A model generated the notes under the pieces. That model did no database searches, was not told the origin of the DNA, and saw nothing but the letters and a program-made list of their open reading frames with translations. A DNA stretch of 27,356 nucleotides from a virus: IMG/VR virus record IMGVR_UViG_3300021197_000569, positions 1 through 27,356 of that record; one strand, 5' to 3'. Position 1 is the first letter of the stretch. Each line of letters opens with the position of its first letter. The position numbers and the translations under genes were made by a program. Below, one piece after another: positions 5,665 to 25,039 of this stretch.

Positions 5665-6312
5665 ATGAAACTAATAGCAGAACAGATACAAGAAGTAGAA
5701 TACATCACCGAAGCCAAAGAGGACGGTGAAAAGGAAATGAAGATTCGTGGAATCTTTATGCAGGCAGACATGAAAAACCGTAATGGTCGTGTCTACCCAA
5801 TGGGTGTACTTCAAAAAGAAGTCACTCGTTATAACAAAGAATTTGTTGCTGAAGGTCGTGCGTTTGGGGAACTGGGTCATCCAGAAGGCCCCACTGTCAA
5901 TCTTGACAGGGTATCGCATATGATTACAAAACTGGAAGCTGATGGAAAGAACTTTATTGGTGAGGCGAAACTGCTCTCTACTCCAATGGGGGAAATAGCG
6001 AAAGCACTAATCAAAGATGGTGGTAAACTTGGTGTCTCTTCAAGAGGCATGGGTTCTATCGAATCTAAGAGTGGTGCTAATTATGTGAAAGACGATTTTT
6101 ATCTTGCCACTGCGGCAGATATTGTTGCAGACCCATCTGCACCTCAAGCCTTTGTTGAAGGGATTATGGAAGGTAAAGAATGGATTTGGAACAACGGAAT
6201 ACTCAAAGAAGTTGAGATTGCCGAACTCCATGATGAAATCAATGAGTCTGTAAGACGTAAACAAACTAATGTTTCCGCACTTGCATTCGCAAAATTTCTG
6301 TCTAAACTTTAA
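5665..6312 (+). CDS. 21: Prohead core scaffold protease gp21
   Basis: The product is 215 residues (T4 gp21 is 212). This serine protease sits in the prohead core and, after assembly, cleaves scaffold, capsid and internal proteins. Visible family features are GELGHPEGPTVNL with the presumed catalytic histidine 72, GVSSRGMG with the nucleophile among serines 125-126, and the conserved DIVADPSAPQAF at 152-163. The N-terminus contains YITE followed by A at residues 13-17, which matches the cleavage preference of T4 gp21 (I/L-x-E) and may be a self-processing site. The same pattern appears in gp23 (FLSE/A) and in the ATP-grasp protein at 21175 (FITE/E). Confidence 0.95.
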   Translation: MKLIAEQIQEVEYITEAKEDGEKEMKIRGIFMQADMKNRNGRVYPMGVLQKEVTRYNKEFVAEGRAFGELGHPEGPTVNLDRVSHMITKLEADGKNFIGEAKLLSTPMGEIAKALIKDGGKLGVSSRGMGSIESKSGANYVKDDFYLATAADIVADPSAPQAFVEGIMEGKEWIWNNGILKEVEIAELHDEINESVRRKQTNVSALAFAKFLSKL

Positions 6313-6355: not shown

Positions 6356-7534
6356 ATGTCAGAACTAGACAAGACAATTGAGGAACTAGAGGCGGAAGTC
6401 AGTGCAGAGCTTGAAGAAGCAAAAGCACCTGGCGCAACTGCTGGTAAAGGTGACTCAATGGAAAAACAAGAAGGCGATGTTGAAGATTTGGGTAAACCTG
6501 TCGTTGATCCAGAATCAAAAGACAGTGCTGGAAAGAAGGCTTCTGCTAAAGTAAAAAAAGCAGCAGAACCTAAAGCCGGTGCAACCAAAGAAGAAACTGA
6601 AGCTTCAGACGATTCTGAAACAGAATCACTAGAAGAAGGTAAGATGACAAAAGCGGAAATGTTGAAAGCAATGTACTCTGAAATGGAGAACATGAAAGCT
6701 GGAGACCTTAAAGCGTCTTACGACAAAATGATGGCAAAAGAAGAGGAAGAAAAAGAAGAAGAGTCTGCGAAAGTTGACGAATCTACTTTGGAAGACCGTC
6801 TTGCGTCAGTTGATGTATCAGAAGATGTTTCTGCACTAGTTAATGGTGAAGAAATTTCTGAAGAATTTAAGGAAAAAGCATCTACAATTTTTGAAGCAGC
6901 TGTAAAATCAAAACTTCGTTCAGAAGTTGAGAGAATTGAATCTGCAAAGGTTCAAGAAGTTGCTGAAGAAGTAAACAAAGTCCAAAGTGAGTTGACTGAA
7001 AAAGTTGACGCATACATGGGTTATGTTGTTGAAGAGTGGATGAAAGAGAACGAAATTGCAATTGAACGTGGTCTCAAAGGCGAGATTGCAGAAGATTTCA
7101 TTTCTGGACTTAAATCACTTTTCGAGGAGCATTACATTGATGTTCCAGATGAAAAGTATGACATCTTAGGAAGTCAGTCTGAAAAGATTGATGGACTAGA
7201 AGCCAAACTCAATGAGCAAATCGAGAAGTCTGCTGAACTAAAGAAGCAGAACAATCTATTGGTTCGTGAGTCTGTTTTTGCAGAGGTTTCTTCAGATTTG
7301 GCTGACACCGAAGCTGAAAAATTCAAATCTCTTGCAGAAGATGTAGATTTTACTGATGAAGATTCTTTCAGAAGTAAACTCGACACGCTCAAGGAAAGCT
7401 ATTTCCCGAAAGCAACAACTGTCGCTGAATCTGTAGATTCCGAATCTGAAAGTTCAGAATCTTACGATACAACTGGTGCTATGAGTGCTTATATGAGTGC
7501 AATTAGTAAAAATGTAAAGCGAGGTAAGGTTTAA
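6356..7534 (+). CDS. 22: Prohead core scaffold protein gp22
   Basis: The product is about 392 residues, very rich in Glu, Lys, Ala and Ser, with long predicted helical and coiled-coil stretches, as expected for the major scaffold that shapes the prohead and is then degraded by gp21. It is longer than T4 gp22 (269). The extra length is mostly an acidic N-terminal low-complexity region (about residues 10-140). The C-terminal region around EEHYIDVPDEKYDI and SAYMSAISKNVKRGKV resembles the gp22 end. An upstream in-frame start at 6269 would lie before the late promoter and inside gp21. The ATG at 6356 follows AAGGAG and is preferred. gp23 follows. Confidence 0.92.
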   Translation: MSELDKTIEELEAEVSAELEEAKAPGATAGKGDSMEKQEGDVEDLGKPVVDPESKDSAGKKASAKVKKAAEPKAGATKEETEASDDSETESLEEGKMTKAEMLKAMYSEMENMKAGDLKASYDKMMAKEEEEKEEESAKVDESTLEDRLASVDVSEDVSALVNGEEISEEFKEKASTIFEAAVKSKLRSEVERIESAKVQEVAEEVNKVQSELTEKVDAYMGYVVEEWMKENEIAIERGLKGEIAEDFISGLKSLFEEHYIDVPDEKYDILGSQSEKIDGLEAKLNEQIEKSAELKKQNNLLVRESVFAEVSSDLADTEAEKFKSLAEDVDFTDEDSFRSKLDTLKESYFPKATTVAESVDSESESSESYDTTGAMSAYMSAISKNVKRGKV

Positions 7535-7612: not shown

Positions 7613-8896
7613 ATGTTTCAAACTGAACATTTACAGGAGAAGTGGCAACCAGTCCTAGAACACAATGATCTTCCAGAGATTAATGATTCTTATCGTAAGG
7701 CTGTAACTACTGTTATCCTAGAAAACCAAGAAAAAGCACTTCGTGAGGACTCTGCGTTCTTATCAGAAGCTGCACCAACTAACTCAACTGGTTCTGCTGT
7801 TGATAATTGGGATCCGATCCTAATTTCATTAGTCAGACGTGCTATGCCTAACCTTATCGCATACGATGTGGCAGGTGTACAACCTATGACTGGCCCAACT
7901 GGTTTGATTTTTGCAATGCGTTCACGTTACACTAACCAAAGTGGTACAGAGACTTTCTACAACGAAGCAGACTCTGACTTCTCTGGTGACGGTACACAAG
8001 CAGGTACTAATCCAGCGATTCTTAACGATTCGCCAGCTGGTACTTATACTGGTGGTACTGGTATGGCAACTGCTGACGCAGAAGCTAAAGGTGACTCTGG
8101 TTCTAACCACTTCGCAGAAATGGCATTCTCAATCGAGAAGCAAACTGTTACTGCAAAGTCAAGAGCTCTTAAAGCAGAATACACTATGGAACTTGCACAA
8201 GACTTGAAAGCAATCCACGGTTTAGACGCTGAGACAGAACTTGCAAACATCCTTTCTGCTGAAATTCTTAACGAAATCAACCGTGAAGTTATTCGTTCAA
8301 TCTATGTAACTGCTAAGCCAGGTGCTCAGACTGATACTGCAACTGCTGGTATCTTCGACATGGACGTTGACTCAAACGGTCGTTGGAGTGTTGAGAAGTT
8401 CAAAGGACTTATGTTCCAACTTGAAAGAGATGCGAATGTAATTGCTCAACAAACTCGTAGAGGAAAAGGTAACGTAATCATCTGTTCATCTGATGTTGCA
8501 TCTGCACTTCAAATGGCTGGTGTACTTGATTACACTCCTGCTCTTAACAATAACTTAAACGTAGATGACGCTGGTAATACTTTTGCTGGTGTTCTTAACG
8601 GACGTTTCAAAGTGTACATTGACCCATATTCAGCAAATGCTGATGCGAAACAATACTACACTGTAGGTTATAAGGGTACTTCACCTTACGACAGTGGTAT
8701 TTTCTACTGCCCATACGTTCCATTACAAATGGTTCGTGCGGTTGGTGAAAACACTTTCCAACCTAAAATTGGTTTCAAGACTAGATATGGTCTTACTGCA
8801 AACCCATTTGCTGGTGGAGCAACTGCTCGTGGTGGTACACTTACTGCTAACGACAACGTATACTACAGAAGAGTACAAGTTACTAACATCATGTAG
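7613..8896 (+). CDS. 23: Major capsid protein gp23
   Basis: The product is 427 residues in HK97-fold capsid style, shorter than T4 gp23 (521). It forms the hexamers of the head shell. Signature stretches include LVRRAMPNLIAYDVAGVQPM, GPTGLIFAMRSRY, the ELAQDLKAIHGLDAETELAN segment and FYCPYVPLQMVRAVGE near the end. The N-terminal about 52 residues look like the propeptide removed by gp21: FLSE ends at residue 52 and is followed by AAPTNS, matching an I/L-x-E cleavage rule. Strong AAGGAG ribosome-binding site and its own late promoter. A strong terminator follows. Confidence 0.97.
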   Translation: MFQTEHLQEKWQPVLEHNDLPEINDSYRKAVTTVILENQEKALREDSAFLSEAAPTNSTGSAVDNWDPILISLVRRAMPNLIAYDVAGVQPMTGPTGLIFAMRSRYTNQSGTETFYNEADSDFSGDGTQAGTNPAILNDSPAGTYTGGTGMATADAEAKGDSGSNHFAEMAFSIEKQTVTAKSRALKAEYTMELAQDLKAIHGLDAETELANILSAEILNEINREVIRSIYVTAKPGAQTDTATAGIFDMDVDSNGRWSVEKFKGLMFQLERDANVIAQQTRRGKGNVIICSSDVASALQMAGVLDYTPALNNNLNVDDAGNTFAGVLNGRFKVYIDPYSANADAKQYYTVGYKGTSPYDSGIFYCPYVPLQMVRAVGENTFQPKIGFKTRYGLTANPFAGGATARGGTLTANDNVYYRRVQVTNIM

Positions 8897-12722: not shown

Positions 12723-13764
12723 TACACACTTCGGCGCCCGTAATGATAACTTAGCTTTCAACGAATACTTTTATGAGTTTTGGGAGAATACATTTTTCCC
12801 ATATGTAAAAGAAAAGGGGATTGATACTGTTATTCATTTGGGTGACGTTATGGACAGACGTAAGTTTGTATCCTACAAGATAGCACAAGACTTTCGTAAA
12901 AGATTTATTCAAAAGTTTGTAGATGAAGGTATTACCTTACATATGCTTGTGGGTAATCACGATACATTTTACAAGAACACTAATGATGTTAACTCTCTTG
13001 CAGAACTTGTTGAGGGTAGATATCCAAAGATGTTTGTTTATCCAGAAACTGCTACTGTTGAGTTTGATGGTACACCCATTTGTTTTATTCCTTGGATTTG
13101 TCCAGACAATTATGGACATACAATGGAACATATCAAAAGCACTAAAGCACAAGTTGCTATGGGTCATTTAGAAATCAATGGTTTTGAAATGCACGCTGGA
13201 CACTTTGCAGAAGGTGGTTACGACAAACAATTCCTAAACAAATTCGATACAGTATTCTCTGGTCACTTTCATAAGAAGTCTGATGATGGACAAGTTTTCT
13301 ATCTAGGCAATACTTATCAAATGACATGGAGTGATGATGGGTGTCCTAAAGGTTTTCATATATTCGATACCTCTACAAGAGAATTAGAACGTATCGTCAA
13401 TCCATACACAATTTTTCAGAAAGTATATTATGATGAGACTACTACAGACTATACACAGTTTGATGTATCTCAATTAAAGAACAAGTTTGTAAAAATTATT
13501 GTAGTCAATAAAAAAGACTTTTATGCATTTGATAGATTTATTGATAAAGTACTTGGTGAGTCTGGAGCCCATGAGGTAAAGATTGTAGAGGACTTTAGTG
13601 AATTAGATGCAGAGAATGTTGATGATACTATTGTAGAAAATGCAGAAGATACCATGACTTTATTGGAAAGGTATATTGACGAATTGGATGTAACACTAGA
13701 TAAGAACAGACTAACAAACATGATGAAATCTTTATATCTTGAAGCGAGTGATTTAGAACTGTAA
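12700..13764 (+). CDS. 47: Recombination nuclease subunit gp47 (Mre11/SbcD family)
   Basis: The product is 354 residues (T4 gp47 is 339). It is the phosphoesterase subunit that, with gp46, resects DNA ends for recombination-dependent replication. The metal-binding motifs are all visible: DTHFG (8-12), GDVMDRRK (48-55), GNHD (about 85-88), then the later GHLE and GHFHKKS histidine motifs. The ATG lies inside the end of gp55, and the stop overlaps the gp46 start (TAATG), so the three genes form one coupled operon. Confidence 0.96.
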   Translation: MKIALITDTHFGARNDNLAFNEYFYEFWENTFFPYVKEKGIDTVIHLGDVMDRRKFVSYKIAQDFRKRFIQKFVDEGITLHMLVGNHDTFYKNTNDVNSLAELVEGRYPKMFVYPETATVEFDGTPICFIPWICPDNYGHTMEHIKSTKAQVAMGHLEINGFEMHAGHFAEGGYDKQFLNKFDTVFSGHFHKKSDDGQVFYLGNTYQMTWSDDGCPKGFHIFDTSTRELERIVNPYTIFQKVYYDETTTDYTQFDVSQLKNKFVKIIVVNKKDFYAFDRFIDKVLGESGAHEVKIVEDFSELDAENVDDTIVENAEDTMTLLERYIDELDVTLDKNRLTNMMKSLYLEASDLEL

Positions 13765-15476
13765 TGATAATATTTAAAACTGTACGTTGGAAGAACTTTC
13801 TTTCAACAGGAAATCAATTTACTGAAATACAGTTGGATAGAAGTCCAACTACATTAATTATTGGAGAGAATGGTGCTGGTAAAAGTACTATTCTTGATGC
13901 TCTTTGTTTTGGGTTGTTCAATAAACCATTCCGTAACATCGCAAAGAAACAACTAGTAAACTCTGTCAATAATGGTAGTTCAGTTGTTGAGGTAGAATTT
14001 AGTATCGGTACTAAAGAGGTGAAGGTTGTTCGTGGTATCAAACCCAATTCCTTTGAGGTATACGTTAATGGTAATATGATTAATCAAGATGCAAATGCTC
14101 GTGATTATCAGAAACATCTAGAACAACAAATTATGGGATTGAACTATCGTTCTTTCACACAGGTTGTTATTCTGGGTTCTTCTACATTTGTTCCCTTTAT
14201 GCAATTACCAACCAAGGCAAGGCGTGAGGTGGTAGAAGATATTCTTGATATTAAGATTTTCTCTCTGATGAATTTCTTATTGAAAAATAAGACAAAAGAA
14301 CTGAATGAAGAAACTCGTAATGTTGAGTATCAATTTGACCTAACCAAAGAAAAAGTAACTCTGCAAGAGAAGTTTATTAAAGAAGTGGTTAATAATAAGT
14401 CAGAGATTATTGCTGAGAATCAACAAAAAGTACATGATAATGAATTTACAATTGGTACACGAAAAGAAGATATTGTTGGATTAGAACAAGACAAAACTAA
14501 ACTGTCTTATGATGCAGAAGAACAAGCAAGACTAGAAGAGAAGATTACTAAACTAAGTAAAACAGAAGCCGCGCTTCAGAATAGAAAAGATAATCATGAC
14601 CGTCAAATCAAGTTTTTCAAGGACAACGATGAGTGCCCGACTTGCGAGCAATCAATCACGGATACAACAAAGCAGACGCAGATTGCAACACGGACTGAAA
14701 AGGTCGGAGAAATCACAAACGGAATCCGACAGTTGGAAGAGTTGGAAAATGCCGAAAAGTCCAAATTAGATGTTATCATATCAAATCTAGAAACCATTCG
14801 TAAACATGATGTTGAGATTGCAAAGATTCGTGCGTCTATTAAAGAGATGGAAAGTTTTAATGCTAAGTTAAAGCAAGATATTCAGACATACGAAAAGGGA
14901 CAAGTATCAGAAGAAGATAAAGAGAAACTTGCAAAACTCAAAGGACAGATTGAACTGATTGAAGAACAAAAGTCTAAGTTAACAGAAGATAAGTTTTACA
15001 TTGATGTTGCTCGTAATCTATTACAAGATACTGGTATTAAGACAAAGATTATTAAACAGTATCTACCCATTATGAACAAGTTGGTAAATACATATCTTTC
15101 GTCTATGGACTTCTTTGTTAACTTTAATATTGATGAGAACTTTAACGAAACAATTAAGTCACGCTTTCGTGATGAGTTTTCTTATGCATCATTCTCTGAA
15201 GGTGAAAAGATGCGTATCGACCTTGCATTGCTATTTACATGGAGAGCAATTGCAAAGATGAAGAACTCAACTAATACCAATCTACTAATCCTTGATGAGA
15301 TATTTGATTCATCTTTGGATGGTACAGGTACAGATGATTTCCTCAAAATATTGAATACATTCCACGACCAGAATGTGTTTGTCATATCTCATAAACAAGA
15401 CATGCTATTTGACAAGTTCAGAAGTGTCGTTAAGTTTGAGAAAGTTAAAAACTTCAGTAGAATATCAAAGGATTAA
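13764..15476 (+). CDS. 46: Recombination nuclease ATPase gp46 (Rad50/SbcC family)
   Basis: The product is 570 residues (T4 gp46 is 560). It is the SMC-like ATPase partner of gp47. Domain order: Walker A GENGAGKST (34-42), a coiled-coil arm (about 180-430) with a zinc hook CPTC (C291 and C294), the ABC signature FSEGEKMRIDLAL (about 476-488) and Walker B LLILDEIFDSS (about 506-516), followed by the ISHKQ histidine switch. Base use around the zinc hook (about 14,565-14,775) is visibly richer in GC and in rarely used codons than the rest of the gene, suggesting a recombined patch. Confidence 0.96.
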   Translation: MIIFKTVRWKNFLSTGNQFTEIQLDRSPTTLIIGENGAGKSTILDALCFGLFNKPFRNIAKKQLVNSVNNGSSVVEVEFSIGTKEVKVVRGIKPNSFEVYVNGNMINQDANARDYQKHLEQQIMGLNYRSFTQVVILGSSTFVPFMQLPTKARREVVEDILDIKIFSLMNFLLKNKTKELNEETRNVEYQFDLTKEKVTLQEKFIKEVVNNKSEIIAENQQKVHDNEFTIGTRKEDIVGLEQDKTKLSYDAEEQARLEEKITKLSKTEAALQNRKDNHDRQIKFFKDNDECPTCEQSITDTTKQTQIATRTEKVGEITNGIRQLEELENAEKSKLDVIISNLETIRKHDVEIAKIRASIKEMESFNAKLKQDIQTYEKGQVSEEDKEKLAKLKGQIELIEEQKSKLTEDKFYIDVARNLLQDTGIKTKIIKQYLPIMNKLVNTYLSSMDFFVNFNIDENFNETIKSRFRDEFSYASFSEGEKMRIDLALLFTWRAIAKMKNSTNTNLLILDEIFDSSLDGTGTDDFLKILNTFHDQNVFVISHKQDMLFDKFRSVVKFEKVKNFSRISKD

Positions 15477-20386: not shown

Positions 20387-20772
20387 GCTATGAACTTAAA
20401 CACTATCTCAAATCCATAAACGAAACAAAGGAACATCTGTTAGATTCAGATGACCCTATGTGGGAAAAGAAGTATTCCCCCTACATTATCAACAAATGTC
20501 TTGCACCATTCAATGACACTATTATGTTAGTGAATGAGATGAATATGAGACACCACCTTGATTCAAAACTACAATATGACTTTTTACTAAATACTATTAG
20601 GTCTAAGAAACGATATGCTCCTTGGGTAAAAGCGAGTAAGTTGAAAGATTTAGAGTATGTAAAAGAGTATTATGGTTATAGTAATGAGAAGGCAAAGGCT
20701 GCTCTGATGATACTTGATAATGAACAAATTAATACTATAAAAAGTAGTTTGAATAAAGGTGGAAGAAAATGA
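20383..20772 (+). CDS. 62: Clamp loader small subunit gp62
   Basis: The product is 129 residues, clearly shorter than T4 gp62 (187). It is the single non-ATPase subunit of the clamp loader. Assignment rests on position between gp44 and regA with ATGA overlaps at both ends, and on the N-terminal helical layout (SYELKHYLKSINETKEHL and the conserved YSPYIINKCLAPF segment). Most of the missing length appears to be at the C-terminal end. No frameshift or stop disruption is seen. Confidence 0.88.
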   Translation: MSYELKHYLKSINETKEHLLDSDDPMWEKKYSPYIINKCLAPFNDTIMLVNEMNMRHHLDSKLQYDFLLNTIRSKKRYAPWVKASKLKDLEYVKEYYGYSNEKAKAALMILDNEQINTIKSSLNKGGRK

Positions 20773-21173
20773 ATGAAATTGATTGGCAGCCCGAAAGGAT
20801 GCTCGAAGTAAAATTAAAAGAACCAGATGATTTCCTAAAGGTTCGTGAGACATTAAGTCGTATTGGAGTTGCATCTCGCAAAGAGAGAAAACTTTATCAG
20901 TCGTGTCACATCCTACATAAACAAGGACGATACTTTATCGTTCACTTCAAAGAGTTATTCGCTCTGGATGGTAAAGACACAAATATAAATCAGAACGATA
21001 TTGAACGTAGAAATTCAATCGCATCTCTATTAAGCGATTGGGGTTTAATTGAACTTATGGGTACAGCAGAACCCAAAGCACCACTATCACAAATCAAGGT
21101 GATTGCATTTAAAGAAAAGAATGAGTGGGACTTAGAAACAAAATATAATATCGGCAAAAAAAGAGAAGCTTAA
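20769..21173 (+). CDS. regA: Translational repressor RegA
   Basis: The product is 134 residues (T4 RegA is 122). It binds early mRNAs near the start codon and blocks translation. LKEPDDFLKVRETLSRIGVA, KLYQSCHILHKQGRYFIVHFKE and LLSDWGLIEL are near-identical in pattern to T4 RegA. There is a 10-residue N-terminal extension (MNEIDWQPER) before the methionine that matches the T4 start. The upstream ATG is preferred because it has a spaced GGTGGAAG site and couples to gp62 by ATGA overlap, while the internal ATG at 20799 has AAAGG directly against it. Confidence 0.95.
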   Translation: MNEIDWQPERMLEVKLKEPDDFLKVRETLSRIGVASRKERKLYQSCHILHKQGRYFIVHFKELFALDGKDTNINQNDIERRNSIASLLSDWGLIELMGTAEPKAPLSQIKVIAFKEKNEWDLETKYNIGKKREA

Positions 21174-21174
21174 G

Positions 21175-22224
21175 TTGACACAAAAATTCTCACAATTCAT
21201 CACTGAAGAACCAAAAGAGCAGAAGTATAAACTTGTAATCTTTCATAACTCTCACGAAAACTTGAGAGATGTAGGTAAACAAGATAGGCCTGATGTTAAG
21301 TTGATGAATGATGCCACAAAGAAACTTGGTATTAATCTATTTAATGCTGAATATTCTGGTAGTTTTATCGAAGAGAAAAATGGAAAGTTTTATGTCAACT
21401 CTTTCGCATTCGATGAAACAGGTAAGGCAGTAAAACCAAGTGAGGATGGTAAAACAGAATATCAAAAACCATTTGAGATTAGTCCAGAAGATACATTAAT
21501 TTTCCCTAGAGGATTAGGTACTCTTGGATTTACTACCAATAGACGTTGGGTAGATATGATTAGACTCTTAGAAGATGCTGGATTTAAAACAATACCATCT
21601 TTAGAGACATGGGATATCTGCACAAGTAAATATTATTGCAATGAGTTGTTTAGGAAAAATGGATTAAATACTCCAACAACTGTTCCTATAACATATTCAG
21701 ATGACACAGAACGAGCAATCGAAGGAATGAAGTTTCCGATAATACTTAAAGCATCCAGTGGTTCACAAACTGGTGTTGGAGTTGTTATTGTAGAGAGTAT
21801 GCGTTCACTACATCCAACAGTACAAATGTTATCACTGTTGAGTAAGAACATTGACCTTGTTGCTCAAGAATATATTAAAGTTGATTATGATGTTAGAGTT
21901 ATTGTACTTAACGGTGAAATAATCGCATCAATGAAACGACTAGTAATTGATGGTGATGCAAGAAGTAATGCGTCATTAGGTGCAGAGACAGAAGAGATAG
22001 AACTGACTGAAATTGAAAAGTCAGATTCAATCAAAGCTGCAAAACTCTGTAAAGGAGATTTGGTTGGTGTAGACTTTCTTCCCTCTAAAAATAGAGAGAA
22101 GGAACAACCATATATACTGGAAATAAACAGTATGCCAGGGTTTGGCGGAATTGAAAGGTCTACTAAAGGTAAGAGTGTTACTCAAGAAATATTGAAAACA
22201 TTCTTATATCGAAACAATTGGTAA
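21175..22224 (+). CDS. ATP-grasp ligase, RimK-like, with capsid-targeting-like N-terminus
   Basis: The product is 349 residues. ATP-grasp enzymes join a carboxylate to an amine using ATP; RimK adds glutamates to ribosomal protein S6. Visible features: FPIILKASSGSQTGVGVV (187-203) with ATP-binding K192 and the glycine loop, the DYDVRVIVLNGEIIASMKR strand pair (237-255) and GVDFLP plus YILEINSMPGFGGIE (298-327) with metal ligands near D300, E316 and N318. The start is TTG 21175; no ATG or GTG lies near. Residues 4-11 (KFSQFITE) resemble the T4 internal-protein capsid-targeting peptide MKTYQEFIAE and end in a gp21-type cleavage site. Substrate unknown. It sits between regA and gp43, two bases after regA. 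Confidence 0.85.
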   Translation: MTQKFSQFITEEPKEQKYKLVIFHNSHENLRDVGKQDRPDVKLMNDATKKLGINLFNAEYSGSFIEEKNGKFYVNSFAFDETGKAVKPSEDGKTEYQKPFEISPEDTLIFPRGLGTLGFTTNRRWVDMIRLLEDAGFKTIPSLETWDICTSKYYCNELFRKNGLNTPTTVPITYSDDTERAIEGMKFPIILKASSGSQTGVGVVIVESMRSLHPTVQMLSLLSKNIDLVAQEYIKVDYDVRVIVLNGEIIASMKRLVIDGDARSNASLGAETEEIELTEIEKSDSIKAAKLCKGDLVGVDFLPSKNREKEQPYILEINSMPGFGGIERSTKGKSVTQEILKTFLYRNNW

Positions 22225-22481: not shown

Positions 22482-22507
22482 GAAACTCTTTGATAAGGAA
22501 AAATGTC

Positions 22508-25039
22508 TTGAATTTTTATACTCATGTAGCCCAGTGGGGCAACCAACTTTTGGTTCGTGCAGTAAAGAATGGTGTTCGCTCTAACTATAAGGTTAAATAC
22601 GAACCCACACTTTATGTACCTGTAAAGAACCCTACTGGATTTACAACTCTGGATGGCGGTAACGTCAATCCAATGAAATTCCTTACCATCAAAGAGGCAA
22701 AGGAATTTGTAGAGTTGTATCAGAGTCAACCACACCTCGTGTTTGGTATGACTCAATTCCCATATACTTACATCGCTGAACAATACCCTAAACAGATTCA
22801 ATTTGATTCTGAGAAGATGCGTATTGTTACTATTGATATTGAGGTTGAATGTGAGAATGGTTTCCCACATGCAGAACAAGCTGCAGAACCCATGTTATCA
22901 ATCACTATCAAGAACCACGATACTGGACGTATTAAGGTTTGGGGTTTACATGAATATAAAAACGATAGAGATGATGTACAATACATTCAGTGTGCAAATG
23001 AACGTGAACTTCTAGCACAATTCCTTGCATGGTGGGAGTATGACCATCCAGATATTATTACTGGTTGGAATACAGAATTCTTTGATATTCCCTATATCTG
23101 TAACCGTATCAAATCTCAAATGGGTGAGGACGCAATGAAACGTCTATCGCCTTGGGGTGTTGTTGATGCAAGAATGGTTGGTTCTGGTTTCGGTAAGAAA
23201 GACCAAGTATACAATATTCTTGGTGTTGAGAATATCGACTATCTACAACTCTATCGTAAATTTACTTATACTAATCAAGAATCATATCGCCTTGACCATA
23301 TTGCATTTGTTGAACTAGGACAACGCAAAGATGATAATCCTTATGAGACATTTCGTGATTGGTATACTAAAGATTATCAGTCATTCCTAGACTATAACAT
23401 CCAAGACGTTGAACTAGTTGACAGGCTTGATGAGAAGATGAAACTCATCGACTTGATTCTGACTATGACATATGAGGCAAAGGTAAATGTCTCTGATTCA
23501 TTTACGTCTGTTAAGTATTGGGATGTACTAATTTACAATCATCTACTAAAACAAAAGATTATTATTCCACAAAAACTTGGACACAAATCCAAAGGTGAGA
23601 AGTATGTTGGTGCTTATGTAAAAGAACCACAAGTAGGACAACACAAATGGGTTATGTCTTTTGACTTAAACTCTCTATATCCTCACTTGATTATGCAGTA
23701 CAATATTTCACCAGAGACTTTGTTGTCAAAACAACTTAATCTTGGTGATACTGCTGTTGATGATTTGATTGCACAGAAATTCAAAATTAAAGATATGCTT
23801 CCATCTAATGTAACGATGACACCTAACGGTGCATTGTTCAGTAAGGACAAACTAGGGTTCTTACCTAAGATGATGCAAGAGATGTACGATGACCGTACTA
23901 TCTACAAAAAGAAGATGTTGGATGCCCAACAAAAATATGAAAATACCAAAGATGCTAAATACTTAAAGGATGTATCTAAGTTTCAGAACATCCAGATGGC
24001 AAGAAAGATTTCACTAAACTCAGCCTATGGTGCGATTGGTAATGAGTGGTTTAGATATTATGATTTGAGAATTGCAGAAGGTATTACAACTTCTGGACAG
24101 TTCTCTATTCGTTGGATTGAAAAATCTATTAACATGTATCTAAACAAATTGTTAAAAACGGATGGAGAAGATTATGTTATTGCATCGGATACGGATTCAG
24201 TATACATTACTTTTGACAAGTTGGTTAATACTGTGCTTAAAAAGAAAGCAGATGAGTCAGAGAGTGCGTATCGTGGGAGGGCGGTGGACTTCCTTGATAG
24301 AGTTGCTCAAGATAAACTTGAACCTTTTATTGATAAGAGTTATCAAGCTCTTGCTTCTTATGTAAATGCATATGACCAAAAGATGCAAATGGCAAGAGAG
24401 GTTATTGCAGACAAGGGTATCTGGACTGCAAAGAAAAGATACATTCTTAATGCGTGGGATATCGAAGGTGTTCGTTATCAAGAACCTAAACTTAAAATCA
24501 TGGGTATCGAAGCAGTTAAATCATCTACGCCTGCACCTTGTCGTGACAAGATTAAAGAGGCACTGAAGATTATCATGTCTGGTACAGAGAAGGATGTAAA
24601 TACATTCATCCAAGAGTTTCGTGAAGAGTTTATGAAACTTCCACCAGAAGAGATTGCATTTCCTCGTTCTGTTAATGGACTAAAGAAGTGGAGTAGTAGT
24701 TCTGGTATCTTTACTAAAGGTGTTCCTATGCATTGTAAGGGTGCATTGCTTTACAATCACTATACTAAACAGAATAGACTAACTAACAAGTATCCTCTTA
24801 TACAGGAAGGTGACAAAATCAAGTTCTTAAACATGAGACAACCGAATCGTATGTCATCAAACGTAATATCTTTCATTACGAAGTTGCCTACAGAACTAGA
24901 ATTGCACAGTATGATTGATTATGACTTACAATATGAGAAGGCATTTGTTGAACCATTGACGTTTATTATGAACCAAATTGGGTGGAAGATTGACCGTTCT
25001 TATGGAACACAGACAACTCTTGAGGATTTCTTTGGATAA
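22508..25039 (+). CDS. 43: DNA polymerase gp43 (family B)
   Basis: The product is about 843 residues (T4 gp43 is 898). It is the replicative polymerase with proofreading. Exonuclease motifs: TIDIEVE with D110 and E112, GWNTEFFDIPY near 185, and YNIQDVELVD near 295. Polymerase motifs: A DLNSLYPHL near 387, B KISLNSAYG near 500, and C SDTDS near 560. The C-terminus TLEDFFG fits the clamp-binding tail of this family. The TTG at 22508 starts NFYTHV, the usual start in marine homologues, eight bases after AAGGA; an in-frame TTG at 22490 would fall at the predicted transcript start and is rejected. Confidence 0.96.
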   Translation: MNFYTHVAQWGNQLLVRAVKNGVRSNYKVKYEPTLYVPVKNPTGFTTLDGGNVNPMKFLTIKEAKEFVELYQSQPHLVFGMTQFPYTYIAEQYPKQIQFDSEKMRIVTIDIEVECENGFPHAEQAAEPMLSITIKNHDTGRIKVWGLHEYKNDRDDVQYIQCANERELLAQFLAWWEYDHPDIITGWNTEFFDIPYICNRIKSQMGEDAMKRLSPWGVVDARMVGSGFGKKDQVYNILGVENIDYLQLYRKFTYTNQESYRLDHIAFVELGQRKDDNPYETFRDWYTKDYQSFLDYNIQDVELVDRLDEKMKLIDLILTMTYEAKVNVSDSFTSVKYWDVLIYNHLLKQKIIIPQKLGHKSKGEKYVGAYVKEPQVGQHKWVMSFDLNSLYPHLIMQYNISPETLLSKQLNLGDTAVDDLIAQKFKIKDMLPSNVTMTPNGALFSKDKLGFLPKMMQEMYDDRTIYKKKMLDAQQKYENTKDAKYLKDVSKFQNIQMARKISLNSAYGAIGNEWFRYYDLRIAEGITTSGQFSIRWIEKSINMYLNKLLKTDGEDYVIASDTDSVYITFDKLVNTVLKKKADESESAYRGRAVDFLDRVAQDKLEPFIDKSYQALASYVNAYDQKMQMAREVIADKGIWTAKKRYILNAWDIEGVRYQEPKLKIMGIEAVKSSTPAPCRDKIKEALKIIMSGTEKDVNTFIQEFREEFMKLPPEEIAFPRSVNGLKKWSSSSGIFTKGVPMHCKGALLYNHYTKQNRLTNKYPLIQEGDKIKFLNMRQPNRMSSNVISFITKLPTELELHSMIDYDLQYEKAFVEPLTFIMNQIGWKIDRSYGTQTTLEDFFG

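Follow-up and report, generated by a model that had tools for sequence, protein, structure and literature searches.

The ligase gene and its N-terminal leader

We analysed a 27.4-kb virus record (IMG/VR IMGVR_UViG_3300021197_000569; 27,356 nt, hereafter the window), which is almost the same sequence as Methylophilales phage Melnitz, a T4-type marine myovirus (OM43 clade) assigned to Kyanoviridae. Between regA and gp43 the window encodes a RimK-type ATP-grasp ligase with an N-terminal leader of the capsid-targeting type, and the evidence set out below suggests that this enzyme is very probably packaged in the phage head and injected, as a T4-type internal protein. Its TTG start lies one base 3' of the regA stop, and the sole difference from the annotated Melnitz protein (QZI94735, 'RimK-like ATP-grasp domain protein') is the reading of this TTG; the N-terminus is M(L)TQKFSQFITE|EPKEQ.

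In T4, a leader of this type attaches its protein to the prohead core, the protease gp21 cuts after the Glu, and the body is retained in the head and ejected with the DNA. The T4 internal-protein capsid targeting sequence is reportedly due to Mullaney and Black, in 1996. In this sequence, MKTYQEFIAE, residues 4 and 7 serve targeting and residues 8 and 10 are needed for cutting by gp21, whose cleavage motif is L/I-X-E (PMC9026906). When the window leader (MTQKFSQFITE) was set against it, F5, F8, I9 and E11 corresponded to T4 residues 4, 7, 8 and 10, with equal spacing and the register shifted by +1. All four mapped positions match: the two aromatics are those for targeting, I9 and E11 those for processing, and I9-T10-E11 forms a gp21 processing-type site. 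The leader anatomy is that of T4 IPI, IPII and IPIII (aromatic 4, aromatic 7, I/L 8, E 10), and the exact T4 register is seen in the homologues starting MEKFKSFITE, MENFKKFLSE and MGKFVEFLKE. Sites in head proteins of the window were located at YITE(13–16)|A17 in gp21 and FLSE(49–52)|A53 in gp23, and the same genome encodes homologues of gp21 and gp22 (PF03420 and PF25623 matches). An earlier note, made from these letters without database searches, had described a protein starting MTQKFSQFITE and then EPKEQ, the T4 targeting layout (aromatic-x-x-F-I-x-E) of this start, and an ITE of the cleavage type seen in the phage's own gp21 (YITE/A) and, as LSE, in gp23 (FLSE/A); the translation and the comparison with T4 bear out all three. 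In the predicted structure, the predicted local distance difference test score (pLDDT) is below 50 at residues 1–4 and 6–11 and the first AlphaFold2 (AF2) strand comprises residues 19–24, suggesting that the leader is disordered and lies outside the enzyme fold.

Conservation of the leader and replacement of the body

The motif [FLYWI]..[FYWL][ILV].E is kept in 55 of the 56 phage homologues with a readable start, down to 36% identity, or in 23 of 24 when distinct N-termini are counted. The x positions vary, also among close relatives (KFSQFITE, SFSQFITE, SFTNFITE, SFSNFIVE). The ligase of Pelagibacter phage Mosig begins MQVQPFKNYLEEA. When 84,980 genomes of bacteria and archaea were scanned, 30 relatives of the ligase were recovered; the cellular ATP-grasp proteins among them whose N-termini were read begin at the first strand, leaderless (MKFLILG..., MKVKKIKFVIVG...), while the three full-length matches on phage-like contigs binned into metagenome-assembled genomes do carry the leader (LEQFKSFITE, VEKFKSFITE, MLSFNELISE). 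The leader is specific to the phage homologues and is not part of the enzyme itself. Clade homologues with the enzyme and without the peptide, which the earlier note had named as evidence that could overturn its reading, were looked for, and the near-complete retention of the motif gives no refutation.

The gene order gp45-44-62-regA-ligase-gp43 is maintained across most loci. Across relatives the ligase body is 45–46% identical and the neighbours are mostly 82–97% identical; between locus L043 and Melnitz, for example, the flanking genes share 90–97% and the ligase body 45%. Three loci of this allele class (L044, L046, L048) are 88–100% identical to the window over the first 60 nt and 25–32% over the remainder. 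With the leader and the neighbouring genes both conserved, the ligase body has been replaced from one relative to another, which is also the pattern of T4 internal-protein loci. The T-even internal proteins have only the N-terminal leader in common, and it was through this leader that the ip genes were found (PMC12373910). The earlier note saw its main reason for doubt in the position of the gene in the replication cluster. This is not a valid objection, since in T4 the interval between denV and e, likewise outside the head cluster, harbours ipII and ipIII.

Frequency of the motif in T4-type genomes

In the Melnitz proteome (221 coding sequences) two matches to F..F[ILV].E fall within the first 12 residues where 0.06 would be expected, and when any aromatics are allowed three proteins carry the motif at the N-terminus, against 0.39 expected: the ligase, a 361-amino-acid (aa) protein (MQGFKTFLSEAK) and a DUF6267 protein (INFSKYITEDKGG). 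In many IMG/VR relatives the latter two families pair a fast-changing leader with a conserved body behind it. Over 10 T4-type genomes (2,279 open reading frames, ORFs) the aromatic motif has a frequency of 2.9e-3 per position at residues 4–5, an enrichment of about 15-fold over the background at residues 16–200 (1.2e-4 to 2.3e-4 per position), and in nine genomes 11 occurrences were observed against 0.73 expected. As a control, the scan of T4 recovered ipII and ipIII. Two further apparent T4 matches, at 114210 (inside uvsW) and 20411 (upstream of the 61.4 start), and one in S-CREM2 at 132446 (inside nrdA) were dropped as internal or mis-started. S-CBWM1, which is outside Kyanoviridae, had zero matches; S-TIM5, also outside the family, was left out of the scan.

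In Melnitz (MZ577097) the genes for the 361-aa protein (L070:12203-13288, no Pfam match) and the DUF6267 protein (13272-14528, 418 aa) are adjacent and follow gp41.

Leader-bearing enzymes in virions of sister phages

The virion proteome of S-CREM2 comprises 52 of its 219 proteins (PMC10665884). Scanning this genome with the motif fixed beforehand gave exactly three genes: ORF6, a SAM hydrolase (MKDFDSFLEE), ORF14, an APH/ChoK kinase (VKRFDAFLTEE), and ORF154, a cytidylyltransferase (MKNFSSFLTEA). These are precisely the three 'regulatory', non-structural enzymes detected by mass spectrometry in its virions; the hypergeometric probability of the overlap is 0.013 when all virion proteins are taken as reference and 1.2e-5 when only the six non-structural proteins of predicted function are. 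The association is repeated by cytidylyltransferases of other phages, among them S-SM1 GC190, which is reported in virions (PMC3037559) and starts MKKFSAFLNEA, and the virion NMNAT of S-SCSM1, which starts MKSFLQFLKEA. For two phages the leader was predicted before the sequence was read: the S-SZBM1 cytidylyltransferase, the only enzyme in its virion (PMC9146016), starts MRFRQFIIEA, and the S-CRM01 kinase, reported in virions (per PMC10665884), starts MISFDQFLSE. Virion data are tabulated or stated for four of the phages, and six of their seven leader-bearing proteins are virion proteins (P = 2e-4). These enzymes share with the window ligase the phage family and the N-terminal leader; unlike them, the ligase is of another enzyme type, and it is they that were detected in purified virions. 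Neither the leader nor a route of these enzymes into the virion is dealt with in the published reports consulted.

In S-CRM01 (NC_015569) a GNAT acetyltransferase (139045-139440; MKTFDEFLTEG), a Ser/Thr kinase (101508-103973) and a very basic protein (36132-36791; MRTFESFLAEA) each carry a leader and may form an injected panel of protein-modifying enzymes.

One further candidate line of evidence was given little weight. The annotation of a distant homologue, YerA41_066, reads 'structural protein', and among the particle-associated products in the YerA41 paper is a 'ribosomal protein modification protein'; judging by gene order the two are presumably the same protein. We discounted it because the particles held many replication enzymes and the protein has no T4-type leader.

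The enzyme domain

The ligase matches Pfam RimK (PF08443) with 115 bits, and of the solved structures those closest to it by both sequence and fold are the RimK enzymes of Pseudomonas and E. coli (best Foldseek matches 7qys, 7qyr and 5zct, with a TM-score of 0.81 for 7qys). Nine residues are invariant across 20 diverse phage homologues (K152, K192, R241, R255, R263, N265, D300, E316 and N318), and because the catalytic residues, which are shared with the bacterial bS6 alpha-L-glutamate ligase RimK, are conserved in this way, the ligase is very probably active. PF18030 (RimK_N) has no match in the window ligase, and PADLOC gave no match. With the NCBIfam models, the window ligase scored 130.2 bits on TIGR00768 (RimK family; cut-off 143.4), which the Mosig homologue passes with 173.8, and 73 bits on the S6-ligase equivalog NF007764 (cut-off 331).

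RimK-type enzymes add glutamates to the C-terminus of a protein. Three relatives have a RimB-like retropepsin domain (DTGN motif) fused C-terminally, namely those of Mosig (L069:4992-6377), L272 (2962-4365) and L273 (2971-4401); unlike these, the window ligase is without a RimB domain. Bacterial RimB trims the glutamate tails that RimK makes on bS6 and stimulates RimK, also in poly-glutamate synthesis (PMC11957791). The fold and these fusions in relatives, and only they, point to polyglutamylation; glutamylation is our best guess at the reaction. That the ligase glutamylates a host protein such as bS6 is a tentative proposal, bS6 being a reasonable yet unproven target since the S6-ligase score falls far below its cut-off.

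In Mosig, L272 and L273 a single leader-bearing protein, probably packaged, unites ligase and protease. Melnitz also encodes a ribosomal protein, bS21 (L070:35389-35661), which is another possible link to ribosome modification.

Proposed role and alternatives

The earlier note's suggestion of a capsid internal protein is well supported by the persistence of the motif across replacement of the body, by the leaderless cellular relatives and by the sister enzymes detected in virions. Its second part, that the enzyme may act on a host target such as a ribosomal protein early in infection, is a tentative proposal. We hold packaging in the capsid to be highly likely. The full account, a T4-type internal protein that is cut by gp21, injected and active on a host protein, we regard as likely. 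By analogy with T4, the leader would dock the ligase to the prohead core as the head assembles, and gp21 would cleave after Glu11, freeing an enzyme that begins at Glu12. DNA would then be packaged around the ligase, which would enter the next host with the genome. There, ahead of phage gene expression, the RimK-type domain would consume ATP in joining an amino acid (glutamate being the most likely) to a host protein's C-terminus, as packaged T4 Alt modifies RNA polymerase.

As with the T4 internal proteins, gp21 and gp22 homologues are present, the gene is outside the head cluster and the body diverges behind a conserved leader. For the most part, the T4 proteins are known as small inhibitors of the T-even phages. 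Unlike those non-enzymatic proteins, the window protein is a 349-aa ATP-dependent ligase, whose packaging and injection are predicted. The T4 internal proteins that carry the capsid targeting sequence have been reviewed (PMC9026906), as have their functions (PMC12373910). The closest functional analogue is T4 Alt, an ADP-ribosyltransferase that is packaged, processed by gp21 and modifies a host protein on entry (PMC9026906), although the ligase belongs to an unrelated enzyme family and its modification would differ.

Several observations weigh against packaging and injection. An exact late promoter (TATAAATA) precedes head genes and none was found near the ligase gene; an early or middle protein could persist until head assembly. 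Homologue L042 (KEFVNLQES) lacks the Glu of the motif, and the distant S-RIM8 and S-RIM32 ligases have no leader. The P1'/P2' residues of the predicted cut are Glu-Pro, where T4 usually has Ala; a P1' Glu is also present at the gp21 N-termini of sister phages. S-SZBM1_191 was not detected in the virion despite a perfect leader, and when homologous cytidylyltransferases are counted once the mass spectrometry association has only P = 0.03. The S-CREM2 authors caution that abundant proteins may contaminate CsCl-purified virions (PMC10665884), and a virion proteome turned up in our search of the open-access literature neither for Melnitz nor for any other Kyanoviridae phage with the ligase.

The alternative we take most seriously, while still judging it unlikely, is that the leader is packaged and cut but the ligase, instead of modifying a host protein after injection, works within the infected or assembling cell, on the head core or phage proteins or in making poly-glutamate. 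The RimB-type fusions in relatives, the stimulation by RimB of poly-glutamate synthesis by RimK besides its trimming of bS6 (PMC11957791) and the low S6-ligase score are all compatible with this; however, a cleaved leader with a body that varies between close relatives fits the injected T4 proteins, whose known roles belong to the next host. A very improbable alternative takes the peptide for a replisome-binding motif, for instance for the sliding clamp, that reflects the position between regA and gp43. The aromatic motif is short, the synteny with gp45-44-62-regA-43 is conserved and gp43 itself terminates in a clamp-type TTLEDFFG, but clamp motifs end in adjacent aromatics, whereas the leader always has I, L or V after the second aromatic and a nearly invariant Glu two residues further on. 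The motif is moreover found on a SAM hydrolase, a kinase, a cytidylyltransferase and an acetyltransferase, several of them virion proteins where tested, and on T4 ipII and ipIII. On this residue pattern and the identity of the motif-bearing genes we rejected the clamp-binding (PIP-like) reading. Equally hard to sustain is an ordinary disordered extension that resembles the T4 leader by chance: a short motif has a strict expectation above zero, yet the excess in this phage and over the nine genomes and the conservation among homologues speak against it, and because the enrichment is position-specific we rejected chance resemblance.

Beyond the ligase as an internal protein, we think it fairly likely that Kyanoviridae run a general effector-delivery system in which a T4-type leader loads a lineage-specific panel of enzymes into the head for injection; as part of the same proposal, the panel would include the RimK-type ligase, a Ser/Thr kinase, an acetyltransferase, a SAM hydrolase, an NMNAT-like cytidylyltransferase, DUF6267 proteins and others. 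The leader marks enzymes in one of the ocean's most abundant phage families and offers an explanation for the metabolic enzymes that recur in cyanophage virion proteomes, the question of cargo or contamination being reduced to testing a ten-residue peptide. Under the proposal, injected cargo would become predictable from sequence in uncultured marine viruses, and candidate host-takeover enzymes could be listed from the genome. For cyanophages, pelagiphages and methylophages alike, the open-access literature we searched contained no account of leaders of the capsid-targeting type.

Features of the window and a related T4 gene

Table 1. Positions of the ligase gene, its parts and the genes discussed with it
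Feature	Position	Strand	Basis
RimK-type ATP-grasp ligase coding sequence with N-terminal capsid-targeting-type leader; 349 aa, TTG start	21175..22224	+	translation, Pfam, Foldseek
Capsid-targeting-type leader MTQKFSQFITE; gp21 is predicted to cleave after E11 (21207|21208)	21175..21207	+	
Short charged linker EPKEQKY, joining leader to first enzyme strand	21208..21228	+	AF2 strand 1
RimK ATP-grasp domain (PF08443)	21625..22191	+	Pfam; invariant residues
gp21-type prohead protease with N-terminal site YITE|A of its own; expected to cleave the leader	5665..6312	+	PF03420
gp22-type prohead core/scaffold, on which the leader is expected to dock	6356..7534	+	PF25623, phrog_237; start per Melnitz annotation
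gp23-type major capsid protein, propeptide site FLSE52|A53	7613..8896	+	PF07068
regA, conserved neighbour upstream of the ligase gene	20769..21173	+	
gp43 DNA polymerase, conserved neighbour downstream of the ligase gene	22490..25039	+	

In T4 itself, the uncharacterised 54-aa gp61.1 (AF158101, 18966-19130), encoded beside the primase gp61, begins MKTFKEFIKED, a full capsid-targeting motif, which makes it a candidate for an unrecognised T4 internal protein.
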